DNA from: Actinomycetota bacterium
GTDB taxonomy: Bacteria > Actinomycetota > Acidimicrobiia > Acidimicrobiales > JAMDDE01
Direction: 5' to 3'
Length of the DNA: 43,410 nt
Assembly (NCBI GenBank): GCA_023489235.1
Contig: JAMDDE010000044.1
Coordinates: forward strand, 2,027 to 45,436
The notes beneath the pieces were generated by a model. The model ran no database searches. It was not told the DNA's origin and saw only the letters and a list, made by a program, of their open reading frames with translations. A program made the translations under genes and the position numbers. Every line of letters begins with the position of its first letter. Position 1 is the stretch's first letter. Positions 13,977 through 24,307 of this stretch are shown one piece after another.

Positions 13977-15145
13977 TGAGATATCTTGGAGTTCTCTACA
14001 GTCTTTTCGACAATGCTGGGCACGCTGGCTGGATTACCGACTACTTGTTCTTTCAACAGTTCGTAACCAGCATTTTTGTAAATTGCCCTACCTCTTGGCG
14101 AAAGCACGAAACTTATGAATGAAATTGCTTGCTTGCTGTAACCCTTCGTCGAACTGCTGAGCGGTACATGGTTTTCGCGAATGGCAGTGATGTCTACAGT
14201 CAGTGGTGTGCCGTGTACTACCTTGCCTCCCGGTAACAGCAGAGAGGCTGCAGCGTAGGAACTGCTGTATGCTGGATCACCGAAGTTAATTGCTGCAGGC
14301 AGAGCTACATAAGGCAGATGGTATTGAACAGCCTGGGACAAAAAAGCACTAGCTGCATCCAACTGCCCTGCTTGCAAGTGGGCGTCAAGACTGGTCTCTG
14401 AGAATATCTGACTAGGTGCCCCCAGGCCAGTTCCACCGAGAATGCGTCTTGCCGTTCCAGAGGGGAGGTGCAAGTAGGCGACGGCCAAGTGAACCATCAT
14501 GACGAAAGCCTGTCCTTGAGGGTCGGTTGCTGGATTGGTCCTACCTAGGCGAAAGCCAGGTGATGTCATTGCTTCGAACAATTGTTTTAAACTTGCCTTT
14601 CCCTGTTGAACCCTAGAGAACAAGGAGGCATACCTGCTGTGGGGGTTATAGGCAATCACGAGGGGACTAGCCATGAACTGTACATAAAAAGAGGTGAACT
14701 TGGGTTCGAGCAACTTTATGGGTCCGCTGCCCACGCTCTCGAACACTCCCGGCTGGATCTCTGAGGCCATGATCTCATGGGCCAAGCCGAACGAGCCGCC
14801 GCCACGTCCTTGGTAAGCTATGTGTGTCTTGTCGGTAAAGGCTGGACCTAGAGTTGTGTCGTTCACTCGTTCGAGGGAGCCTGCATAGGCAACGTCCACG
14901 TGGCCAGAGATGCCGTGGTGCGGATTGTTGGTGTTCTTGGTGGAAGAGCAGGCAGTAATGGTAACAGCGAGGATCGAGAGGACGACAAGGGCCAAGGCTG
15001 TTCTAGAGGATCCATGAGTGGGCTTTTGTCGTAGCCAGCAGTATCTCCGTTGAAATGAATTCCTCTGTCGGGATTCAGGAAGAGAGTTACATGTTTCGGA
15101 GGACCGGTCTTGTCCCCCGTTGGTTTCGTAGTAGATCTTCGACAT
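13973..15145 (-). CDS. extracellular molybdate/tungstate-binding lipoprotein-like protein (ModA/WtpA type)
   Basis: hydrophobic segment and Cys (LALVVLSILAVTITACSS), DVAYAGSLERVND, MASPLVIAYNP, PLTVDITAIREN. Confidence 0.9.
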   Translation of the reverse strand: MSKIYYETNGGQDRSSETCNSLPESRQRNSFQRRYCWLRQKPTHGSSRTALALVVLSILAVTITACSSTKNTNNPHHGISGHVDVAYAGSLERVNDTTLGPAFTDKTHIAYQGRGGGSFGLAHEIMASEIQPGVFESVGSGPIKLLEPKFTSFYVQFMASPLVIAYNPHSRYASLFSRVQQGKASLKQLFEAMTSPGFRLGRTNPATDPQGQAFVMMVHLAVAYLHLPSGTARRILGGTGLGAPSQIFSETSLDAHLQAGQLDAASAFLSQAVQYHLPYVALPAAINFGDPAYSSSYAAASLLLPGGKVVHGTPLTVDITAIRENHVPLSSSTKGYSKQAISFISFVLSPRGRAIYKNAGYELLKEQVVGNPASVPSIVEKTVENSKISQ

Positions 15146-15167
15146 GTTGAAAAGATATCAACGATCA

Positions 15168-15202
15168 TTAGAAATATGCAAGTGCTACTTGCATATTTCT
15201 AA
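15168..15202. promoter_or_regulatory. 35-bp perfect palindrome (16-bp arms, GCT spacer), candidate operator of the mod operon
   Basis: TTAGAAATATGCAAGT-GCT-ACTTGCATATTTCTAA, 23 bp upstream of the binding-protein start. Confidence 0.8.
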
Positions 15203-15207
15203 AACTG

Positions 15208-15222
15208 TTAAGTGACACTTGC
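15208..15222. promoter_or_regulatory. second candidate operator related to the 15168-15202 palindrome
   Basis: AAGTGacACTTGC matches the palindrome core AAGTGctACTTGC; centres are 30 bp apart. Confidence 0.55.
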
Positions 15223-15280
15223 TGTATTCATCAATGATGATCGCACTAGTCGTCCAACTAGCGTGCCGCTGTGATGTTGG

Positions 15281-15309
15281 GAGCAGCTGCGCGGTCGCAG
15301 CGGCGGCTC
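15281..15309. other. strong stem-loop in the mod/lpd divergent region
   Basis: GAGC-A-GCTGCG-CGGT-CGCAGC-GGCG-GCTC: 6-bp GC-rich inner stem plus 4-bp outer stem. Confidence 0.6.
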
Positions 15310-15356
15310 AGCTCTATTAATCTGAAGTAATAAGCAACTAGAGAGGTTGAGGAGAG

Positions 15357-16766
15357 GTGACAACGACTACAGCGGGCGATTTTGACCTGGTGGTGATCGG
15401 TGGCGGACCTGGAGGATATGCCGCTGCGCTATATGCTGCCAGCGCTGGGATGAGAGTTGCTGTCGTAGAGAAAGAAAAAGTTGGGGGTACTTGCTTGCTC
15501 AAAGGTTGTGTACCCACCAAAGAGTTCTTGGAGACAGCTAGTGTATATAGGACGGTGTCCAATGCAAAGGAGTTCGGGGTAGAGGCTGGTCAACCAGTTG
15601 TCGACTTCTCCATTAGCCAGGATCGCAAGCAGAAGGTAGTGGATCACTTGCAACGTGGTCTAACAGGGTTGATGCGTTCGAGAGGAATAGAGATTCTGCA
15701 AGGCAAGGGGACTCTCACCCCTTCGCACAAGGTGAGGATCTCCTCGGGCGAAGAGATTGCCGGACGACATATCCTACTTGCCTCCGGCTCGGTACCGAGG
15801 ACCATTCCAGGATTCGATATCGACGGCAAGACGGTGATCACCTCCGATGAGCTGCTGAGCTTATCTGATCTCCCTAGCTCTGCTGTGGTTATTGGTGGAG
15901 GAGCAATTGGATGTGAGTTCGCATCCTTCCTCTCCGACTTGGGGGTTCATATCACGATTCTGGAAGCTCTACCCAGGATCCTTGCTGGATGCGATAGTGA
16001 TGTGGTCACTGTAGTAGCACGTTCTTTCCGAAAGCGTGGCATCGAGGTGAAGACGAACGTACAGGTGCATGGCCATCGGCCCAATGAACACGGGAAGGGC
16101 ACCACGGTTATCTATGGGCAAGGAGAAGAGCTGAATGTTGACGTGGTGATCGTGTCAGTTGGTCGCCGCCCTTATACAGAGGGACTTCTGGCTCCAGGGA
16201 CGGGCGTATCCGTAAGTGCCAAGGGGTTTGTTGAGGTGGATCCAAGGATGCGCACTACAGCCGATGGAGTATGGGCAGTTGGAGACCTGGTGGATACTCC
16301 TCAGCTTGCTCACGTAGGATTCGCCGAGGCCATTGTTGCCGTGAAGGACATGCTTGGGGAAGATGCAGTACCGGTAGACTACACAAAGGTGCCCTGGTGC
16401 ATTTATTGCCACCCTGAAGTTGCCTTTGTCGGACTCACTGAAGAAGCCGCCTTGTCTGCGGGGTACGAAGTAGTGGTCAAGAAGGATCCTTTGGGCGGGA
16501 ATAGCCGAGCGAGAATTTTAGGTGAAACGGATGGCTTGGTAAAAGTAGTGGCAGAACGCAATCCCGATGGTCATCCAGGAAGGGTTTTGGGGGTACATAT
16601 GGTAGGGCCATGGGTTACCGAACAACTTGGTCAAGCTTATCTCTCAGTGAACTGGGAAGCTGCTCCTGAGGAGATAGCTCAGTTCATTCAACCTCACCCT
16701 ACCTTGTCCGAAGCGTTCGGAGAAACAATGTTGGCTATTACAGGGAGGGGGTTGCACGTTGGCTGA
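15357..16766 (+). CDS. lpdA: dihydrolipoyl dehydrogenase (E3)
   Basis: VIGGGPGGYAAALYAASAG, GGTCLLKGCVPTKEFLE redox-active disulfide, GWVAVGD-type AVGDLVDTPQLAHVGF, C-terminal HPHPTLSEAFGE. Confidence 0.97.
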   Translation: MTTTTAGDFDLVVIGGGPGGYAAALYAASAGMRVAVVEKEKVGGTCLLKGCVPTKEFLETASVYRTVSNAKEFGVEAGQPVVDFSISQDRKQKVVDHLQRGLTGLMRSRGIEILQGKGTLTPSHKVRISSGEEIAGRHILLASGSVPRTIPGFDIDGKTVITSDELLSLSDLPSSAVVIGGGAIGCEFASFLSDLGVHITILEALPRILAGCDSDVVTVVARSFRKRGIEVKTNVQVHGHRPNEHGKGTTVIYGQGEELNVDVVIVSVGRRPYTEGLLAPGTGVSVSAKGFVEVDPRMRTTADGVWAVGDLVDTPQLAHVGFAEAIVAVKDMLGEDAVPVDYTKVPWCIYCHPEVAFVGLTEEAALSAGYEVVVKKDPLGGNSRARILGETDGLVKVVAERNPDGHPGRVLGVHMVGPWVTEQLGQAYLSVNWEAAPEEIAQFIQPHPTLSEAFGETMLAITGRGLHVG

Positions 16767-18441
16767 TGTTACCATGCCTCAACTAGGAGAGACAGTTACA
16801 GAGGGTACCATCACCCGATGGCTTAAGGCATTAGGCGACAAGGTGGAACAGGATGAGCCTCTCTTCGAGGTTTCGACGGACAAAGTGGATTCCGAGGTCC
16901 CCTCTCCAGCCTCTGGCTACCTCACCGAGATCCTGGTTCCCGAGGGTGAGACTGTAGATGTGGGCGCTCGACTTGCTGTAATCAACGAATCCATGCAATC
17001 CGGGAGCAATGCATCCGCTACTTCGAGGGAAGAAAGCCTTTCTGAAGAAAGCCTTTCTCGGTCGGAGGAACGAACAACCCCGTCAGTATCTTTCTCTACT
17101 GAGACACCTACTGGTAGTGCTGCGTCTTTAGCTCCGACCCAATCGCCTGTCTCGGAGCCACGAACTTCAGCTGCGGTTCAGCAACCCTCGTCCAGTGTGC
17201 CCACTGCTGCTCCAGGACAAGGTGTGAGTGGATCAGGACAAGGCGTTCCCACTGCTGCTCCAGGACAAGGTGTGGAGTCGATAGTTGCCCAAAGCGAAGT
17301 CACATCTCGGGATGGGCTGGAACCAGCGGGGCAGGTTAGCAAGGTGCAGGAAGAGGCCGGCCTGTTCTCTTCGACAACTGCGGATCAGCCAGTAGAGAGC
17401 ACGGAAGGGGTCCGACGTGTGCTCTCTCCTGTAGTACGGCGGCTGCTGGCAGAGCACGGCATAGATCCCTCAGAGGTCAGGGGGACAGGCATGGGAGGTC
17501 GTATAACCAGAGCAGATGTATTGGCCCATATCGATCGGTTATCTGCTGCATCCAAGGGAGTAGCTGCTCAGGCTGACAGAGTGGCTCCAGTCAGCGCATC
17601 GACAGGGGTACAAGAAGCCTCCTCGACAGTAGCCCCTCGTCCTCAGAGTCCTCCAGGCCCAGCTAGTGGAGTTGCTGTTCCTACGGAAAGAGCTGTTCCT
17701 GCACCTGCTCCCGTTACTAGCCCTGGCGACTATGACGAAGTAGTGCCTTTTACCAACATAAGAAGACGCACAGCAGAGCATATGGTCAGGTCCAAAGCTA
17801 CCTCTCCCCACGCTTTCATGGTCATCGACGCTGATTTCGAGGGTGTAGAGAGGGCTCGGCGTATGCTACGAGAAAGTTTCCTAGTGGAGGAGGGGTTTTC
17901 CTTGACCTATCTCCCCTTCGTAGCCAAGGCTGTCGTAGAGGCCTTGCGTGCCTATCCGAATCTCAATGCATCCGTGGAGGATGACTCGCTAATTATCCAC
18001 CATCGGATCAATCTAGGCATCGCGGTAGATCTTGACCTGTCTGGTCTCATCGTTCCTGTCATCAAGGACGCGGATAGTCTTGGCGTTCGCGGGTTGGCTA
18101 GAGCTGTACATGATCTTGCTACAAGAGCCCGGACCAGAAAGCTCAGTGCAGACGATATATCTGGAGGCACTTTCAGCATCTCCAATCCAGGCCCTTATGG
18201 AACGCTCGTGACTGCTCCTATAATCAACCAGCCCCAGGTTGCCATCTTGTCCATGGATGGGGTGAAACGCCGTCCTGTGGTCGTATCGGCAGAGGATGGC
18301 ACAGAGGCCATAGCTGTTCATTCCGTCGGGATGTTAGGCGTGTCATGGGATCATCGAGCAGTTGATGGAGCCTATATAGCTGCCTTCCTGCGTAGGTTAG
18401 CCGATATCATCGGCACGCGCGACTGGGTATCCGAACTGTAG
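16759..18441 (+). CDS. 2-oxoacid dehydrogenase E2 (dihydrolipoyl acyltransferase); start TTG
   Basis: one lipoyl domain (FEVSTDKVDSEVPSPASG), peripheral subunit-binding domain (SPVVRRLLAEHGIDPSEVRGTGMGGRITRADVL), catalytic GMLGVSWDHRAVDGAYIAAFL. Confidence 0.96.
   Translation: MADVTMPQLGETVTEGTITRWLKALGDKVEQDEPLFEVSTDKVDSEVPSPASGYLTEILVPEGETVDVGARLAVINESMQSGSNASATSREESLSEESLSRSEERTTPSVSFSTETPTGSAASLAPTQSPVSEPRTSAAVQQPSSSVPTAAPGQGVSGSGQGVPTAAPGQGVESIVAQSEVTSRDGLEPAGQVSKVQEEAGLFSSTTADQPVESTEGVRRVLSPVVRRLLAEHGIDPSEVRGTGMGGRITRADVLAHIDRLSAASKGVAAQADRVAPVSASTGVQEASSTVAPRPQSPPGPASGVAVPTERAVPAPAPVTSPGDYDEVVPFTNIRRRTAEHMVRSKATSPHAFMVIDADFEGVERARRMLRESFLVEEGFSLTYLPFVAKAVVEALRAYPNLNASVEDDSLIIHHRINLGIAVDLDLSGLIVPVIKDADSLGVRGLARAVHDLATRARTRKLSADDISGGTFSISNPGPYGTLVTAPIINQPQVAILSMDGVKRRPVVVSAEDGTEAIAVHSVGMLGVSWDHRAVDGAYIAAFLRRLADIIGTRDWVSEL
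17029..17058 (+). repeat. 2 x 15-bp tandem repeat in the E2 linker (GAAGAAAGCCTTTCT)
   Basis: exact tandem copies 17029-17043 and 17044-17058, encoding EESLS EESLS. Confidence 0.9.
17200..17273 (+). repeat. 26-bp direct repeat, period 48 bp, in the E2 linker
   Basis: CCCACTGCTGCTCCAGGACAAGGTGT at 17200-17225 and 17248-17273, encoding PTAAPGQGV twice. Confidence 0.9.
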
Positions 18442-18450
18442 CCAAATGAG

Positions 18451-20049
18451 TTGATTGGAGATCTCGTGTTCAAGGTACGATGGCTTGGCCGAGTACGTTT
18501 CAATGATGCATACGCCGTGCAGAAGGCTTTGCACGATTGGAGCCGTGATGACTATCTGCTTCTCTTGGAGCATGCTCATGTCTATACGATGGGGGTACGC
18601 GCCAAGGAGGACCACCTGTTAGCTCAGCCAGCAGCATTCGGTGCTGAACTGGTGAAAACGGATCGTGGGGGCGACATCACTTATCATGGTCCAGGTCAGC
18701 TCGTAGTTTATCCAGTTCTATCCCTACCTTGGAAGAAGGGGGTAGTTCCGGAGTATGTGCACGGTATGGAGCAAGTGGTGATAGATACTCTGGATGAACT
18801 AGGACTTCATGGAGCTGGCAGGCTCGAAGGGTATCCAGGTGTTTGGCTGGATACCGATGGAGAACGCCCTAGAAAGATTTGCGCTATCGGAGTCAGGATA
18901 TCCAGGGGACGGACAATGCACGGTCTTGCGTTGAACGTTGATCCGGATCTGTCCATGTTCACCCACATAGTGCCTTGTGGAATAAGCGACAAACCGGTTA
19001 CCTCCCTTGCTGCAGAGGGCGTGCGGGTGAGCATGGCTGACGTGGTGGAGATATTCGTGCGCAAGGCAGTTGATCGCTGGGCCAAGGGGCAAGAGGTTGA
19101 CTGTCAGTACCTCCAACCCATTAGGGGCGATCGGACGATGCCGCCTACCTCGCAGAACGAGAGCAGTAGAGGAACCGATACAGCTGTTGCCATCACTCGT
19201 CGTAAGCCTCCGTGGCTTAGGGCAGTGATGCACATGGGTCCTGGCTATCGTGCCGTGGATAGAACTGTGAAGAGGCTAGGACTCCACACCGTGTGCGAGG
19301 AGGCGGGATGCCCCAACATCTTCGAATGTTGGGGAGGAGGTACGGCTACCTTCATGATCAATGGAGAGAGATGTACCAGATCGTGCGCCTTTTGCATGGT
19401 TGACACAGCCAAACCGCTCCCCTTGGATCCAAAAGAGCCGGAGTCGGTAGCCGAAGCGGTGGTACGCATGGGGCTTAACTATGCCGTGGTAACCTCGGTG
19501 GCCAGAGATGACCTGCCGGATGGAGGCGCCTCTGGTTTTGCAGCCACTATCCGCAGCATCAGAGAGAAGTCTCCAAGTACTCTAGTCGAGGTTCTCGTTC
19601 CAGATTTCAAGGGGGACGACAGATCTCTCCAGGTAGTATTCGATGCTCGACCAGATGTGTTCAACCACAACCTGGAGACAGTGCTGGCTTTGCAGCGTTC
19701 AGTACGACCTTCAGCGTCCTATGCACGCAGCTTGTCCGTACTGGCTCGGGCGAAGCAGGTCGGTCTGACGACCAAGTCAGGTCTGATGGTGGGGTTGGGA
19801 GAGAGCTACGAAGAGGTGATTGGTGCGATTTCCGATCTTGCCTCAGTTGGCGTGGACATACTTACCGTTGGTCAGTATCTGCCTCCTAGTGCCAAACACA
19901 GGCCAGTGTCCAGGTGGTGGCATCCCGATGAATTCGAGCAGTTGAAAAGGGAGGCAGTGAGTATGGGTTTCTCTACGGTGATGGCTGCTCCTTTGGTACG
20001 GTCCAGCTACCATGCAAAAGAAACACTCTGGGCCGTTGAGTCCATGTAG
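18451..20049 (+). CDS. fused octanoyltransferase (LipB) - lipoyl synthase (LipA)
   Basis: N-terminal LipB motifs (RGGDITYHGPGQLVVYP, RKICAIGVRI, ALNVDPDLSMFTHIVPCGI); C-terminal LipA motifs (CEEAGCPNIFEC, CTRSCAFC, RSSYHAKE); one uninterrupted ORF. Confidence 0.95.
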   Translation: MIGDLVFKVRWLGRVRFNDAYAVQKALHDWSRDDYLLLLEHAHVYTMGVRAKEDHLLAQPAAFGAELVKTDRGGDITYHGPGQLVVYPVLSLPWKKGVVPEYVHGMEQVVIDTLDELGLHGAGRLEGYPGVWLDTDGERPRKICAIGVRISRGRTMHGLALNVDPDLSMFTHIVPCGISDKPVTSLAAEGVRVSMADVVEIFVRKAVDRWAKGQEVDCQYLQPIRGDRTMPPTSQNESSRGTDTAVAITRRKPPWLRAVMHMGPGYRAVDRTVKRLGLHTVCEEAGCPNIFECWGGGTATFMINGERCTRSCAFCMVDTAKPLPLDPKEPESVAEAVVRMGLNYAVVTSVARDDLPDGGASGFAATIRSIREKSPSTLVEVLVPDFKGDDRSLQVVFDARPDVFNHNLETVLALQRSVRPSASYARSLSVLARAKQVGLTTKSGLMVGLGESYEEVIGAISDLASVGVDILTVGQYLPPSAKHRPVSRWWHPDEFEQLKREAVSMGFSTVMAAPLVRSSYHAKETLWAVESM

Positions 20050-20104
20050 GTCTGTTCAGCTGACATCCTCTCTGGGTTGAGTCAGGAGCTTGTAGTGGGT
20101 AGCC

Positions 20105-23100
20105 TCAAGTTACGAAGTACTTGGCTTGGGGGTGATGGCATATCAAGGCCGTGGTGGTCTGCTCAGGAAGCAATTGGAATCCATCGGTCAAGCCGACCCC
20201 AATACGATCAGCTTCCACCAGTTCCAATAGCTTGGCATTGTCTTCCAGATTGGGACACGCCGGGTAGCCGAATGAGTACCTTCCTCCCCGGTATCTCTGT
20301 CTGAACAGCCCGGCCAAAGTAGAGTCGTCTTCGTCAGCAAAACCCCATTCTTGCCGGATACGGGCGTGCCAATACTCTGCCAAGGCTTCGGTCATCTCCA
20401 CCCCTAGACCATGGAGGAGGAGATAGTCCCGGTAGTGGTTCTCGGAGAATAAAGCAGCAGTTTCCTTGGATACCCGATCCCCCATCGTCACTGCATGCAG
20501 AGCTACCCAATCCTCCTCCTCTGACTCCACTCCTCGGAAGAAGTCGGCCACGCATAGCCAAGGGTCTTCTTTCTGGCGGGGGAAACTGAACCTGAGCCGC
20601 TCTTTCCTTCGCGACTCGTCTTCCCAGATGATGAGGTCGTTCCCCTCGGAGTTGGCAGGGAGATAGGCCCACGCTACCTTGGGTATGAGTACTCCTTCGG
20701 ACTTGACCATCTCTAACTGCTCGTTCAGTACCGCGCGCACCCTCTGGTTCATGCTGCGAGCATCCTCGCCGGGGAGTGGTCGATACCCCCATTGGTTGCG
20801 GTAAAGAGCGGTTTCATTGAGGTAGGGAATGATCTCGTCAATTGATATTTCCTCGGTTACTCGGCTACCTACGAATGGAGGAGGGAATATGGGGTTGTCC
20901 TGTGAGACCTGAGGAGATCGCGTCTGTTTCCCCTCCCCTGTCGAGGAGCTGCTGTCGTAGCGGTCGCTGCTCAATCTGGAGGGAACCGTGCTGTCCGAAG
21001 GCTTACGTCCGAAATCAGGATCCACCCTCCCGCTCGAGCGCATCTCCATGAGCCTTTCCATGGTGGCCAAACCCTCGAATGCGTCCTTGCCGTAAAAGAC
21101 CCTTCCCTCGTAGATCTTGCGCAAGTCTCGTTCCACGAATGTCCTGGTGAGCGCTGCTCCACCAAGAATAACAGGGATCCTAGCGAGACCAAGGCGATTC
21201 AACTCCTCCAAGTTGTCCCTCATTACCAAGGTTGATTTGACCAACAGACCGCTCATACCAATGGCGTCTGCTCCAACCTCCTCCGCCTTCTTGGCCATCT
21301 CGCTGAGGGGTACCTTGATTCCTAAGTTGTACACACGATATCCATTGTTGGTGAGGATGATGTCCACCAAGTTCTTGCCTATGTCATGCACATCACCTGC
21401 TACGGTAGCAAGTACGACGGTGCCCTTTTGAGTTCCTTCGACCCTCTCCATCTTCGGTTCCAGATAGGAGACGGCTGCTTTCATCGTCTCGGCAGAGGCA
21501 AGCACGAATGGCAGTTGCATCTCCCCGGAGCCAAACAGCTCTCCTACTGTGCGCATGCCTGCGAGCAGGATGTCGCTTACTATCTCAAGAGGACTGTATC
21601 CTTTGTCCAAAGCTTCTTCTAGTTCTTTTTCAATACCTTCCTTGTTCCCATCTATTATGCGTTGCTCCAAACGTTTCTCAATGGGCCAATCAGCCGTTCC
21701 TTTGTTGGCAGATAGGCCGGTAGAGCGCTCCTCTCCTCCGAGATAGGAGAGAAGCTGAGCAAGTGGGTCATAGTTGTTGCTTCGTCGATCATAGATGAGA
21801 TCCAGACAGGTCTTGCGTACCTCCTCAGGTATCTTGTTCAAGGGAAGAATACGACTTGGGTTGAGTATGGCGGCATCAAGCCCAGCCTGTCTGCATTCGT
21901 GAAGAAAGACCGAGTTCAGCGCTTGACGTAAGTTGGCAGATAGTCCAAAGGAAACGTTGGATACTCCAATGATGGTATAAGCACCTGGTATCTCCGATTT
22001 TATCCTGGCTATCCCTTCAATGGTCTCCAATCCGTCACGTCGTGACTCCTCCATGCCAGTCGAGAGAGGAAGGACCAATGGATCGAAGAACAGATCGGAG
22101 TTGCTCAACCCGTATCGTCCAGTGGCTATGTTGGCTACCGCTTTGGCTATGGCAAGCTTCCGCTCCCCTGTACGAGCCTGTCCTTCGCTGTCGATGCAAG
22201 TGACCACTACTGCGGCACCGTACTCCTTAGCGAGAGACAACATGGCATCCAAACGGCTTCCTGGACCATCGCCTTCTTCGAGGTTAACGGAGTTGATGAT
22301 TGCCCTACCACCTATACGGCGAAGAGCTGCTTCGATTACCTCTGGTTCGGTCGAGTCGATCATCAAAGGCACCGGGGATTGAGTGGATAGACGGGACGAT
22401 ATCTCCGTCATGTCCTTCACTCCGTCGGCACCTGTATAGTCAACACAGAGATCTATGATGTGGGCTCCATCTTTTACCTGTTGGCGGGCGATGGAGACAG
22501 CTCGGTCGTAATCTCCGGAGAGCATGGCTTCACGGAAGCTCTTGGATCCGTTGGCATTGGCTCGTTCGCCCACTATCAAGAACGATGTCTCCTGTCGGAA
22601 CGGAACACTCGTGTAGAGAGAGGATGCAGCAGGCTCTCGGCTCGGGGCTCGGTGCTTCAAAGTAGAGTTCTTACAAGATCTGACGACGGCACTGAGGTGC
22701 TCTGGGGTCGTACCGCAGCATCCACCAACTATGGATACTCCTAGATCTTCGACGAAGCTCTTCAAGTAGTCGGCTAGCTCGTCGGCAGTGAGGTCGTAGT
22801 GCATGTGCCCTGCGACAACTTTGGGTAGTCCAGCATTGGGTTGGCAAGCTACTGGCAGTGTAGAGTGAGTGGTCAGGTATCGTACTGCTTCGCGCATCTC
22901 CGATGGGCCGGTAGAACAGTTGATTCCTATTGCATCAGGGTGCATTGCCTCCAAGGTAGTAAGGACGGCTGATATGTCCGTTCCTGGAAGCATTTGCCCA
23001 GTTGATTCCAGGGTTACCTGGACTTGAATAGGAATTTGACGCTGAGCTGCTCTCATTGCTCCGCGGCATGCAGCAATTGCCGCTTTGGCCTGCAACAGAT

Positions 23101-23635
23101 CGAATACCGTTTCAATCAAGAACAGATCTACTCCTCCTGCAAGCAGAGCATTGGCCTGGACTTCATAGGCTTGGCGCAGCTCCTCGAAGCTTACCTGTCC
23201 CAAAGAAGGCAGCTTAGTACCTGGCCCTATACTTCCAGCCACCCATCTTTGGCCGCCCTCTTTCCCCAAGGAATTTATTGCTTGGCGAGCAAGACGCGCT
23301 GCTTGGAGGTTGAGCTCACTAGTGCGCTCGGCCAAACCATACTCCTCCAAGACGACAGCATTAGCCCCGAAAGTGTTGGTTTCGATTACCTCAGCTCCAG
23401 CCTCCAGGAATGCACGGTGCAACTTGTAGACCACATCTGGCTTGGTGATCGTCAATATCTCATTGCAGCCCTCTAAGTGCTTCCCTCCGAAGTCTTCTGA
23501 GGTCAAGTTGGCCAATTGCAAGTTAGTGCCCATTGCTCCGTCAAAGACCACCAGGCGGGAGGTGATAGCTTCTAGATAGGACTCTTGGGTTGCATGAGTG
23601 CCTGTTGGATGCTGAGTCGAGTTGGTAGTGGCCAT
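20105..23635 (-). CDS. metH: cobalamin-dependent methionine synthase
   Basis: homocysteine domain (DGAMGTNLQ, GGCCGTTPEH), pterin domain, cobalamin-binding GDVHDIGKN, C-terminal activation domain. Confidence 0.98.
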   Translation of the reverse strand: MATTNSTQHPTGTHATQESYLEAITSRLVVFDGAMGTNLQLANLTSEDFGGKHLEGCNEILTITKPDVVYKLHRAFLEAGAEVIETNTFGANAVVLEEYGLAERTSELNLQAARLARQAINSLGKEGGQRWVAGSIGPGTKLPSLGQVSFEELRQAYEVQANALLAGGVDLFLIETVFDLLQAKAAIAACRGAMRAAQRQIPIQVQVTLESTGQMLPGTDISAVLTTLEAMHPDAIGINCSTGPSEMREAVRYLTTHSTLPVACQPNAGLPKVVAGHMHYDLTADELADYLKSFVEDLGVSIVGGCCGTTPEHLSAVVRSCKNSTLKHRAPSREPAASSLYTSVPFRQETSFLIVGERANANGSKSFREAMLSGDYDRAVSIARQQVKDGAHIIDLCVDYTGADGVKDMTEISSRLSTQSPVPLMIDSTEPEVIEAALRRIGGRAIINSVNLEEGDGPGSRLDAMLSLAKEYGAAVVVTCIDSEGQARTGERKLAIAKAVANIATGRYGLSNSDLFFDPLVLPLSTGMEESRRDGLETIEGIARIKSEIPGAYTIIGVSNVSFGLSANLRQALNSVFLHECRQAGLDAAILNPSRILPLNKIPEEVRKTCLDLIYDRRSNNYDPLAQLLSYLGGEERSTGLSANKGTADWPIEKRLEQRIIDGNKEGIEKELEEALDKGYSPLEIVSDILLAGMRTVGELFGSGEMQLPFVLASAETMKAAVSYLEPKMERVEGTQKGTVVLATVAGDVHDIGKNLVDIILTNNGYRVYNLGIKVPLSEMAKKAEEVGADAIGMSGLLVKSTLVMRDNLEELNRLGLARIPVILGGAALTRTFVERDLRKIYEGRVFYGKDAFEGLATMERLMEMRSSGRVDPDFGRKPSDSTVPSRLSSDRYDSSSSTGEGKQTRSPQVSQDNPIFPPPFVGSRVTEEISIDEIIPYLNETALYRNQWGYRPLPGEDARSMNQRVRAVLNEQLEMVKSEGVLIPKVAWAYLPANSEGNDLIIWEDESRRKERLRFSFPRQKEDPWLCVADFFRGVESEEEDWVALHAVTMGDRVSKETAALFSENHYRDYLLLHGLGVEMTEALAEYWHARIRQEWGFADEDDSTLAGLFRQRYRGGRYSFGYPACPNLEDNAKLLELVEADRIGVGLTDGFQLLPEQTTTALICHHPQAKYFVT

Positions 23636-23719: not shown

Positions 23720-24307
23720 ATGAGGATCTATACAAGACGTGGGGATGATGGTACTACGAGCATTCGTCAGGGTGGGCGAGTAAGGAAAGACTCATCCTTG
23801 ATCGAACTGAACGGAACTATCGATGAAGCTCAAGCTGCAATAGGTTTAGCTCGTTCGCACCTCGAAACAGGATCGGAGCTTGCTCCTTTGCTGATCGAGT
23901 TGGAACACGAGTTGTGGATGGTCATGGCCGAGGTGGCAAGAGGAACCGATCGAGAGAATGAAGGAGGTGGCGGCAGATCGGGTAGTCAGCTCTCTCGAAG
24001 CTCTGTCCGTTCGGATGAAGGCAAGGTGAGCCAGGACATGATCGTTTCCCTGGAGAGGATGATAGATAGGGCTACTGAGCACTTCATTATGCCCAAAGAA
24101 TTTGTATTACCTGGCGAAACAGATGTCTCGGCAGCTTTGGATTTTGCGAGAACGGTGGTCAGACGTGCGGAGAGGTGGGCTGTGAGGGCGAGAGATGAAG
24201 GTCTTCTTCCTGGAGAAAGTTTAGTAGGAGCCTATCTGAACAGGTTATCTGATCTTTTGTGGTCCCTTGCTCGTTGGGAGCAGCATGACTCCTCTGCGGC
24301 AGAGTGA
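23720..24307 (+). CDS. PduO-type cob(I)yrinic acid a,c-diamide adenosyltransferase
   Basis: MRIYTRRGDDGTTS, ELNGTIDEAQAAIGLAR, LDFARTVVRRAERWAV, LNRLSDLLWSLARWE. Confidence 0.94.
   Translation: MRIYTRRGDDGTTSIRQGGRVRKDSSLIELNGTIDEAQAAIGLARSHLETGSELAPLLIELEHELWMVMAEVARGTDRENEGGGGRSGSQLSRSSVRSDEGKVSQDMIVSLERMIDRATEHFIMPKEFVLPGETDVSAALDFARTVVRRAERWAVRARDEGLLPGESLVGAYLNRLSDLLWSLARWEQHDSSAAE

Follow-up and report, generated by a model that had tools for sequence, protein, structure and literature searches.

Does one reading frame of an acidimicrobial contig encode a genuine two-domain lipoate assembly enzyme, and if so, how did the fusion arise and what does it bring to the cell? The question is raised by the frame at 18451-20049 (+ strand) of the window (the whole 43,410-nt stretch of DNA analyzed here), which runs for 532 codons without a stop and contains an octanoyltransferase (LipB) followed by a lipoyl synthase (LipA) in a single frame. 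LipB is known to load the lipoyl lysine with octanoyl taken from ACP. LipA adds two sulfur atoms, one at C6 and one at C8, and consumes its auxiliary cluster in doing so (PMC9307952, PMC12246082). The fused gene, referred to as lipBA, its parts and its two upstream neighbors are as follows:

15357..16766, + strand: lpdA, dihydrolipoyl dehydrogenase (E3); TIGR01350, 470 bits, over the cut-off
16759..18441, + strand: E2 dihydrolipoyl acyltransferase with one lipoyl domain (PF00364, PF02817, PF00198); likely LipBA substrate
18466..20049, + strand: lipBA, fused octanoyltransferase-lipoyl synthase; 527 aa from GTG 18466 (532 aa from TTG 18451), with an SD-like GGAG before GTG 18466
18466..19080, + strand: LipB (octanoyltransferase) domain, residues 1-205; catalytic Lys137 and Cys171; PF21948, PRK14345, Foldseek 1w66
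19081..19200, + strand: linker, residues 206-245 (40 aa); from the alignment of 53 fused sequences and AlphaFold2 confidence
19201..20046, + strand: LipA (lipoyl synthase) domain, residues 246-527; C277/C282/C288, C303/C307/C310, RSSYHA 512-517; TIGR00510, Foldseek 5exk

The initial annotation had described an intact frame with LipB and then LipA, beginning at 18451. The open frame and its domain order hold, and both domains are complete, with Pfam matches and NCBIfam scores over the family cut-offs; the start, in contrast, is more likely GTG 18466 than TTG 18451. This placement rests on the calculated anti-SD duplex energy (-7.5 kcal/mol for GTG 18466, behind GGAG, versus +0.1 for TTG 18451) and on homologue similarity, which mostly starts at residues 5-7 of the TTG-18451 version. 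Residues are therefore numbered from GTG 18466.

In the first half, the LplA-B_cat domain (PF21948) covers residues 20-204 (E 6e-42), and two NCBIfam models identify it as LipB, namely LipB PRK14345 (NF010925; 198 bits, cut-off 155) and TIGR00214 (160 bits, cut-off 83.55). Both members of the Cys/Lys dyad, K137 and C171, are invariant in the 53 fused sequences that were aligned. Foldseek matched this half to M. tuberculosis LipB (1w66), and it has the same fold and catalytic residues as that protein and E. coli LipB. The second half was assigned to LipA by TIGR00510 (358-360 bits, cut-off 310.25), with LIAS_N at residues 249-287 and Radical_SAM at 306-461; together these matches span residues 246-525. 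Across the same alignment, little or no variation is seen in the cysteines of CEEAGCPNIFEC (auxiliary cluster) and of CTRSCAFC (radical-SAM cluster) or in the C-terminal SSY..A region. The CxxxxCxxxxxC, CxxxCxxC and RSSY motifs are all present, and C277, C282, C288, C303, C307, C310, S513 and S514 are invariant. All LipB and LipA motifs named in the initial annotation are present. When compared with M. tuberculosis LipA (5exk), the LipA half gave a Foldseek TM score of 0.95 by target length, and it shares fold, catalytic residues and clusters with the M. tuberculosis (5exi/5exk) and E. coli enzymes.

The fusion is real, and it turned out to be an architecture of the whole class rather than of this genome alone. 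In the host class Acidimicrobiia, 371 of 396 genomes had a TIGR00510 match, and nearly all of the approximately 150 class matches listed lay in open frames of at least 535 codons. Since open length alone is no proof of fusion, domains were checked frame by frame. Such a check across genomes, which had been proposed for this architecture, yielded 73 distinct class frames (window included) with LipB and LipA matches and no stop; among them are all 20 of 20 loci that were drawn mostly from further Acidimicrobiia families. In a sample of the phylum, every class genome with a match (37/37) had an open fused frame, seen either as one spanning alignment or as two in one frame. The class lipA matches in shorter frames are contig-end fragments (L011, L053, L141, L142 and L144) or belong to an extra gene pair in one genome (G052). 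The organisms carrying fused loci are named Acidimicrobiaceae, Acidimicrobiia, or, for some MAGs, 'Actinomycetes bacterium', the last falling in the same clade; the assignment to the class was drawn from these names. An assembly error or frameshift that joined two genes in the window would be a trivial explanation of the long frame; it is ruled out by the recurrence of the same fusion in dozens of independently assembled genomes, single-contig ones included, and its probability is close to nil.

The genome with the extra pair (G052) has a normal fusion (L139, C3) and, on a 5-kb contig (C83), a separate, divergent and overlapping lipB-lipA pair (L004/L140). The LipA encoded there clusters weakly with its proteobacterial counterparts, and the pair may represent transfer or contamination.

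Outside the class, 291 Actinomycetota genomes had a match, and no unbroken spanning match was seen among the matches listed (approximately 150). Two spanning matches, in G581 and G713, are interrupted by stops. Domain-level examination of 28 non-class loci, including every listed open frame of at least 520 codons, revealed no fusion; these long frames are chance frames that overlap lipB in another frame, frames without a LipB match, or the stop-broken cases just mentioned. The non-actinobacterial loci among the homologues retrieved were also unfused. Instead, lipB and lipA are two genes in Mycobacterium, Nocardia, Nocardioides, Streptomyces, Arthrobacter, Microbacterium and various Proteobacteria, where they are commonly adjacent, overlapping, or in the same frame with a single stop between them. 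The LipB-LipA fusion is thus a standard inherited feature of the class Acidimicrobiia, with one likely origin.

Phylogenetic trees bear on this origin. The fused sequences (53/53) form a single clade of the LipB tree (support 97/88). In the LipA tree, they lie within one clade of 58 sequences (support 94), in which only the five contig-end fragments are unfused. A single clade of all fused LipB domains makes it likely that a lipB-lipA pair already in place was fused once, in an ancestor, and reversal to separate genes was not seen in the class genomes sampled. The most likely course of events is a single loss, in the ancestor of Acidimicrobiia, of the stop or short spacer that separated lipB from its neighbor lipA, followed by inheritance of the fused gene.

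As for activity, the fused protein very likely works as a bifunctional lipoate-assembly enzyme, considering that both domains score over their family cut-offs, that the catalytic residues are kept and that it is the sole lipA found in the genome. The presence of GcvH and several lipoyl domains indicates that the organism needs its cofactor product. In the proposed reaction sequence, the Cys171/Lys137 pair of the LipB half would accept octanoyl from octanoyl-ACP and pass it to the acceptor lysine of lipoyl domains in E2s and GcvH, and the LipA half would insert two sulfurs by radical-SAM chemistry, with the auxiliary 4Fe-4S cluster as sulfur donor. From the sequence, we infer that both halves are active and are produced as one chain; post-translational cleavage within the variable linker is possible. 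Taken together, a genuine bifunctional enzyme that arose by one fusion in the ancestor of Acidimicrobiia and has been inherited without reversal is our preferred reading, with a probability of about 90%. Any benefit of tethering might lie, for example, in a fixed 1:1 stoichiometry or a higher local supply of octanoylated carrier near LipA.

Three further proposals, namely that the fusion is nearly neutral, that it channels its substrate, and that free LipA is also made from an internal start, are refinements compatible with this reading. We give a little better than even odds to the first, in which a stop was lost once and the only consequence was equal stoichiometry, with no channelling. The arrangement of lipB and lipA in neighboring actinobacteria, the one likely origin of the fusion and the unconserved linker all agree with it. 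However, the fusion is kept in every class genome examined (approximately 1 to 5 Mb), which suggests some constraint, an argument that is itself tempered by how hard it is for mutation to split a fused gene. Channelling would require the two domains to be packed in a fixed arrangement, so that the octanoylated lipoyl domain is passed from LipB to LipA before it diffuses off; we regard this as possible but doubtful. In its favor, an AlphaFold2 model built with 53 sequences gave a mean pLDDT of 91.8 and a pTM of 0.92, with most of each domain above pLDDT 90 and only residues 221-237 of the linker below 50, and such a pTM for the whole chain implies that the model places the two domains confidently relative to each other. 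Moreover, the linker enters LipA in its N-terminal part, near the region that matches residues 66-110 of human LIAS, an N-terminal belt that contacts the H-protein (PMC12246082). LipB may accordingly be predicted to lie close to the carrier-docking face of LipA, which makes a hand-over plausible, and the lack of reversion in the sample fits as well. On the other hand, the linker varies in sequence and in length (28-98 aa in the 53 aligned fused sequences) and is modeled partly with low confidence. A second prediction from a disjoint clade reached a pTM of only 0.51, although with this shallow alignment (15 sequences) the domains themselves were poor, and the model weighs neither for nor against a fixed arrangement. 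In addition, the genome has several acceptors, and LipB and LipA function as separate proteins in other bacteria. Because neither the length nor the sequence of the linker is conserved, a flexible tether is favored. It is more improbable still that Acidimicrobiia depend on an obligate single-chain enzyme with active sites in fixed geometry and carrier hand-over, a system not described before.

With regard to the third proposal, the initial annotation had suggested that an internal ATG at about 19138 could also give free LipA, in which case the locus would yield the full-length protein plus a LipA starting with MPPTSQ. This in-frame ATG does exist and is preceded by a weak to middling SD-like AGGGG (-5.6 kcal/mol, a value that falls between the 5% and 25% points of the background). 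However, among the 53 fused sequences, only that of the window has Met in this alignment column, and any Met in the linker was found in 19 of them and none in the other 34. Without a conserved Met in the homologues the idea finds no support, and we consider such a second product very improbable.

The demand on the enzyme was examined within its own genome, which is 93% complete. Here lipBA is the sole TIGR00510 match, and it also encodes the sole canonical LipB found. In view of the class pattern, it is unlikely, though possible, that the rest of the genome holds a lipA or lipB of its own. Likely lipoyl acceptors in this genome, which also has biotin carriers, include GcvH, a frame of 343 aa that has a lipoyl-type domain and adjoins an E1-beta-like gene, and a stand-alone lipoyl-domain protein of 113 aa with a DKV lipoylation motif (L154, G000:C20:43994-44176). 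As the product of the sole lipA and sole canonical lipB found, LipBA probably modifies four or more lipoyl acceptors, GcvH and the neighboring E2 among them. It is therefore unlikely to be a device dedicated to that E2; the presence of at least three other likely acceptors weakens both such dedication and channelling for the cotranscribed E2.

Another protein with an LplA-B_cat domain (225 aa; L148:1429-2106, G000:C36:70907-71581, - strand) is encoded beside an HNH endonuclease gene. It is divergent, matches no LipB model and is a distant relative of ligases, with the ligase-like motifs RRKSGGGGV and KTVGIAQRR as well as FEC, the last standing at a position where ligases have HG. Clear relatives (35-42% identity) were detected in nine other genomes out of a sample of 40 and were seen only within the same order. 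This protein is possibly a salvage ligase or a divergent transferase; as a salvage ligase, it might supplement lipoate synthesis rather than replace it.

Compared with the separate LipB and LipA of M. tuberculosis and E. coli, which are two polypeptides, LipBA differs in being one chain with a variable linker. The NCBIfam family NF053790 (LplA_LipA_fuse, bifunctional lipoate--protein ligase/lipoyl synthase) likewise has a ligase/transferase N-terminal to LipA in one chain; its first half, however, is named a lipoate--protein ligase, whereas that of lipBA is an octanoyltransferase. LipBA does not belong to NF053790, scoring 360 bits against a cut-off of 800, with the LipA half alone matching (profile positions 331-605). 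Gene fusion recurs elsewhere in lipoate assembly, as in the fused Lpl(AB)/Lpl(BA) lipoate ligases, which combine the catalytic and accessory domains of a ligase instead of an octanoyltransferase and a lipoyl synthase; the parts of that lipoate-assembly survey consulted here make no mention of a LipB-LipA fusion (PMC10332631). Our literature search for a LipB-LipA fusion returned no description of one. The enzyme is chemically ordinary, yet its architecture is cleanly clade-wide. Such proteins may already be listed in sequence databases under the label of multifunctional fusions. Annotation that expects LipB and LipA apart may name one half only. The fusion offers a system made by nature in which to test whether lipoyl assembly is faster when LipB is tethered to LipA, and it is a candidate molecular marker for the poorly cultured class Acidimicrobiia. 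In engineering, the fused form could serve as a one-gene lipoylation module.

Finally, lipBA is the third gene of an operon-like lpdA-E2-lipBA cluster, in which lpdA overlaps the start of the E2 gene and 24 nt separate the E2 stop from GTG 18466. No terminator-like site was found within 14900-20300. The position of the fusion after lpdA and an E2 with one lipoyl domain, as first described, is borne out by the domain matches and by conserved neighbors, since most related loci with sufficient flanking sequence also have lpdA and E2 upstream of the fusion. The Mycobacterium and Nocardia loci are similar in that an E2 gene precedes lipB-lipA there too. On the other side of the fusion, B12-dependent methionine synthase (MetH, 1176 aa) is encoded at 20105-23635 (- strand), divergent from a cobalamin adenosyltransferase gene at 23720-24307 (+ strand), and metH is also found downstream of the fusion in three related loci (L027, L029 and L030).
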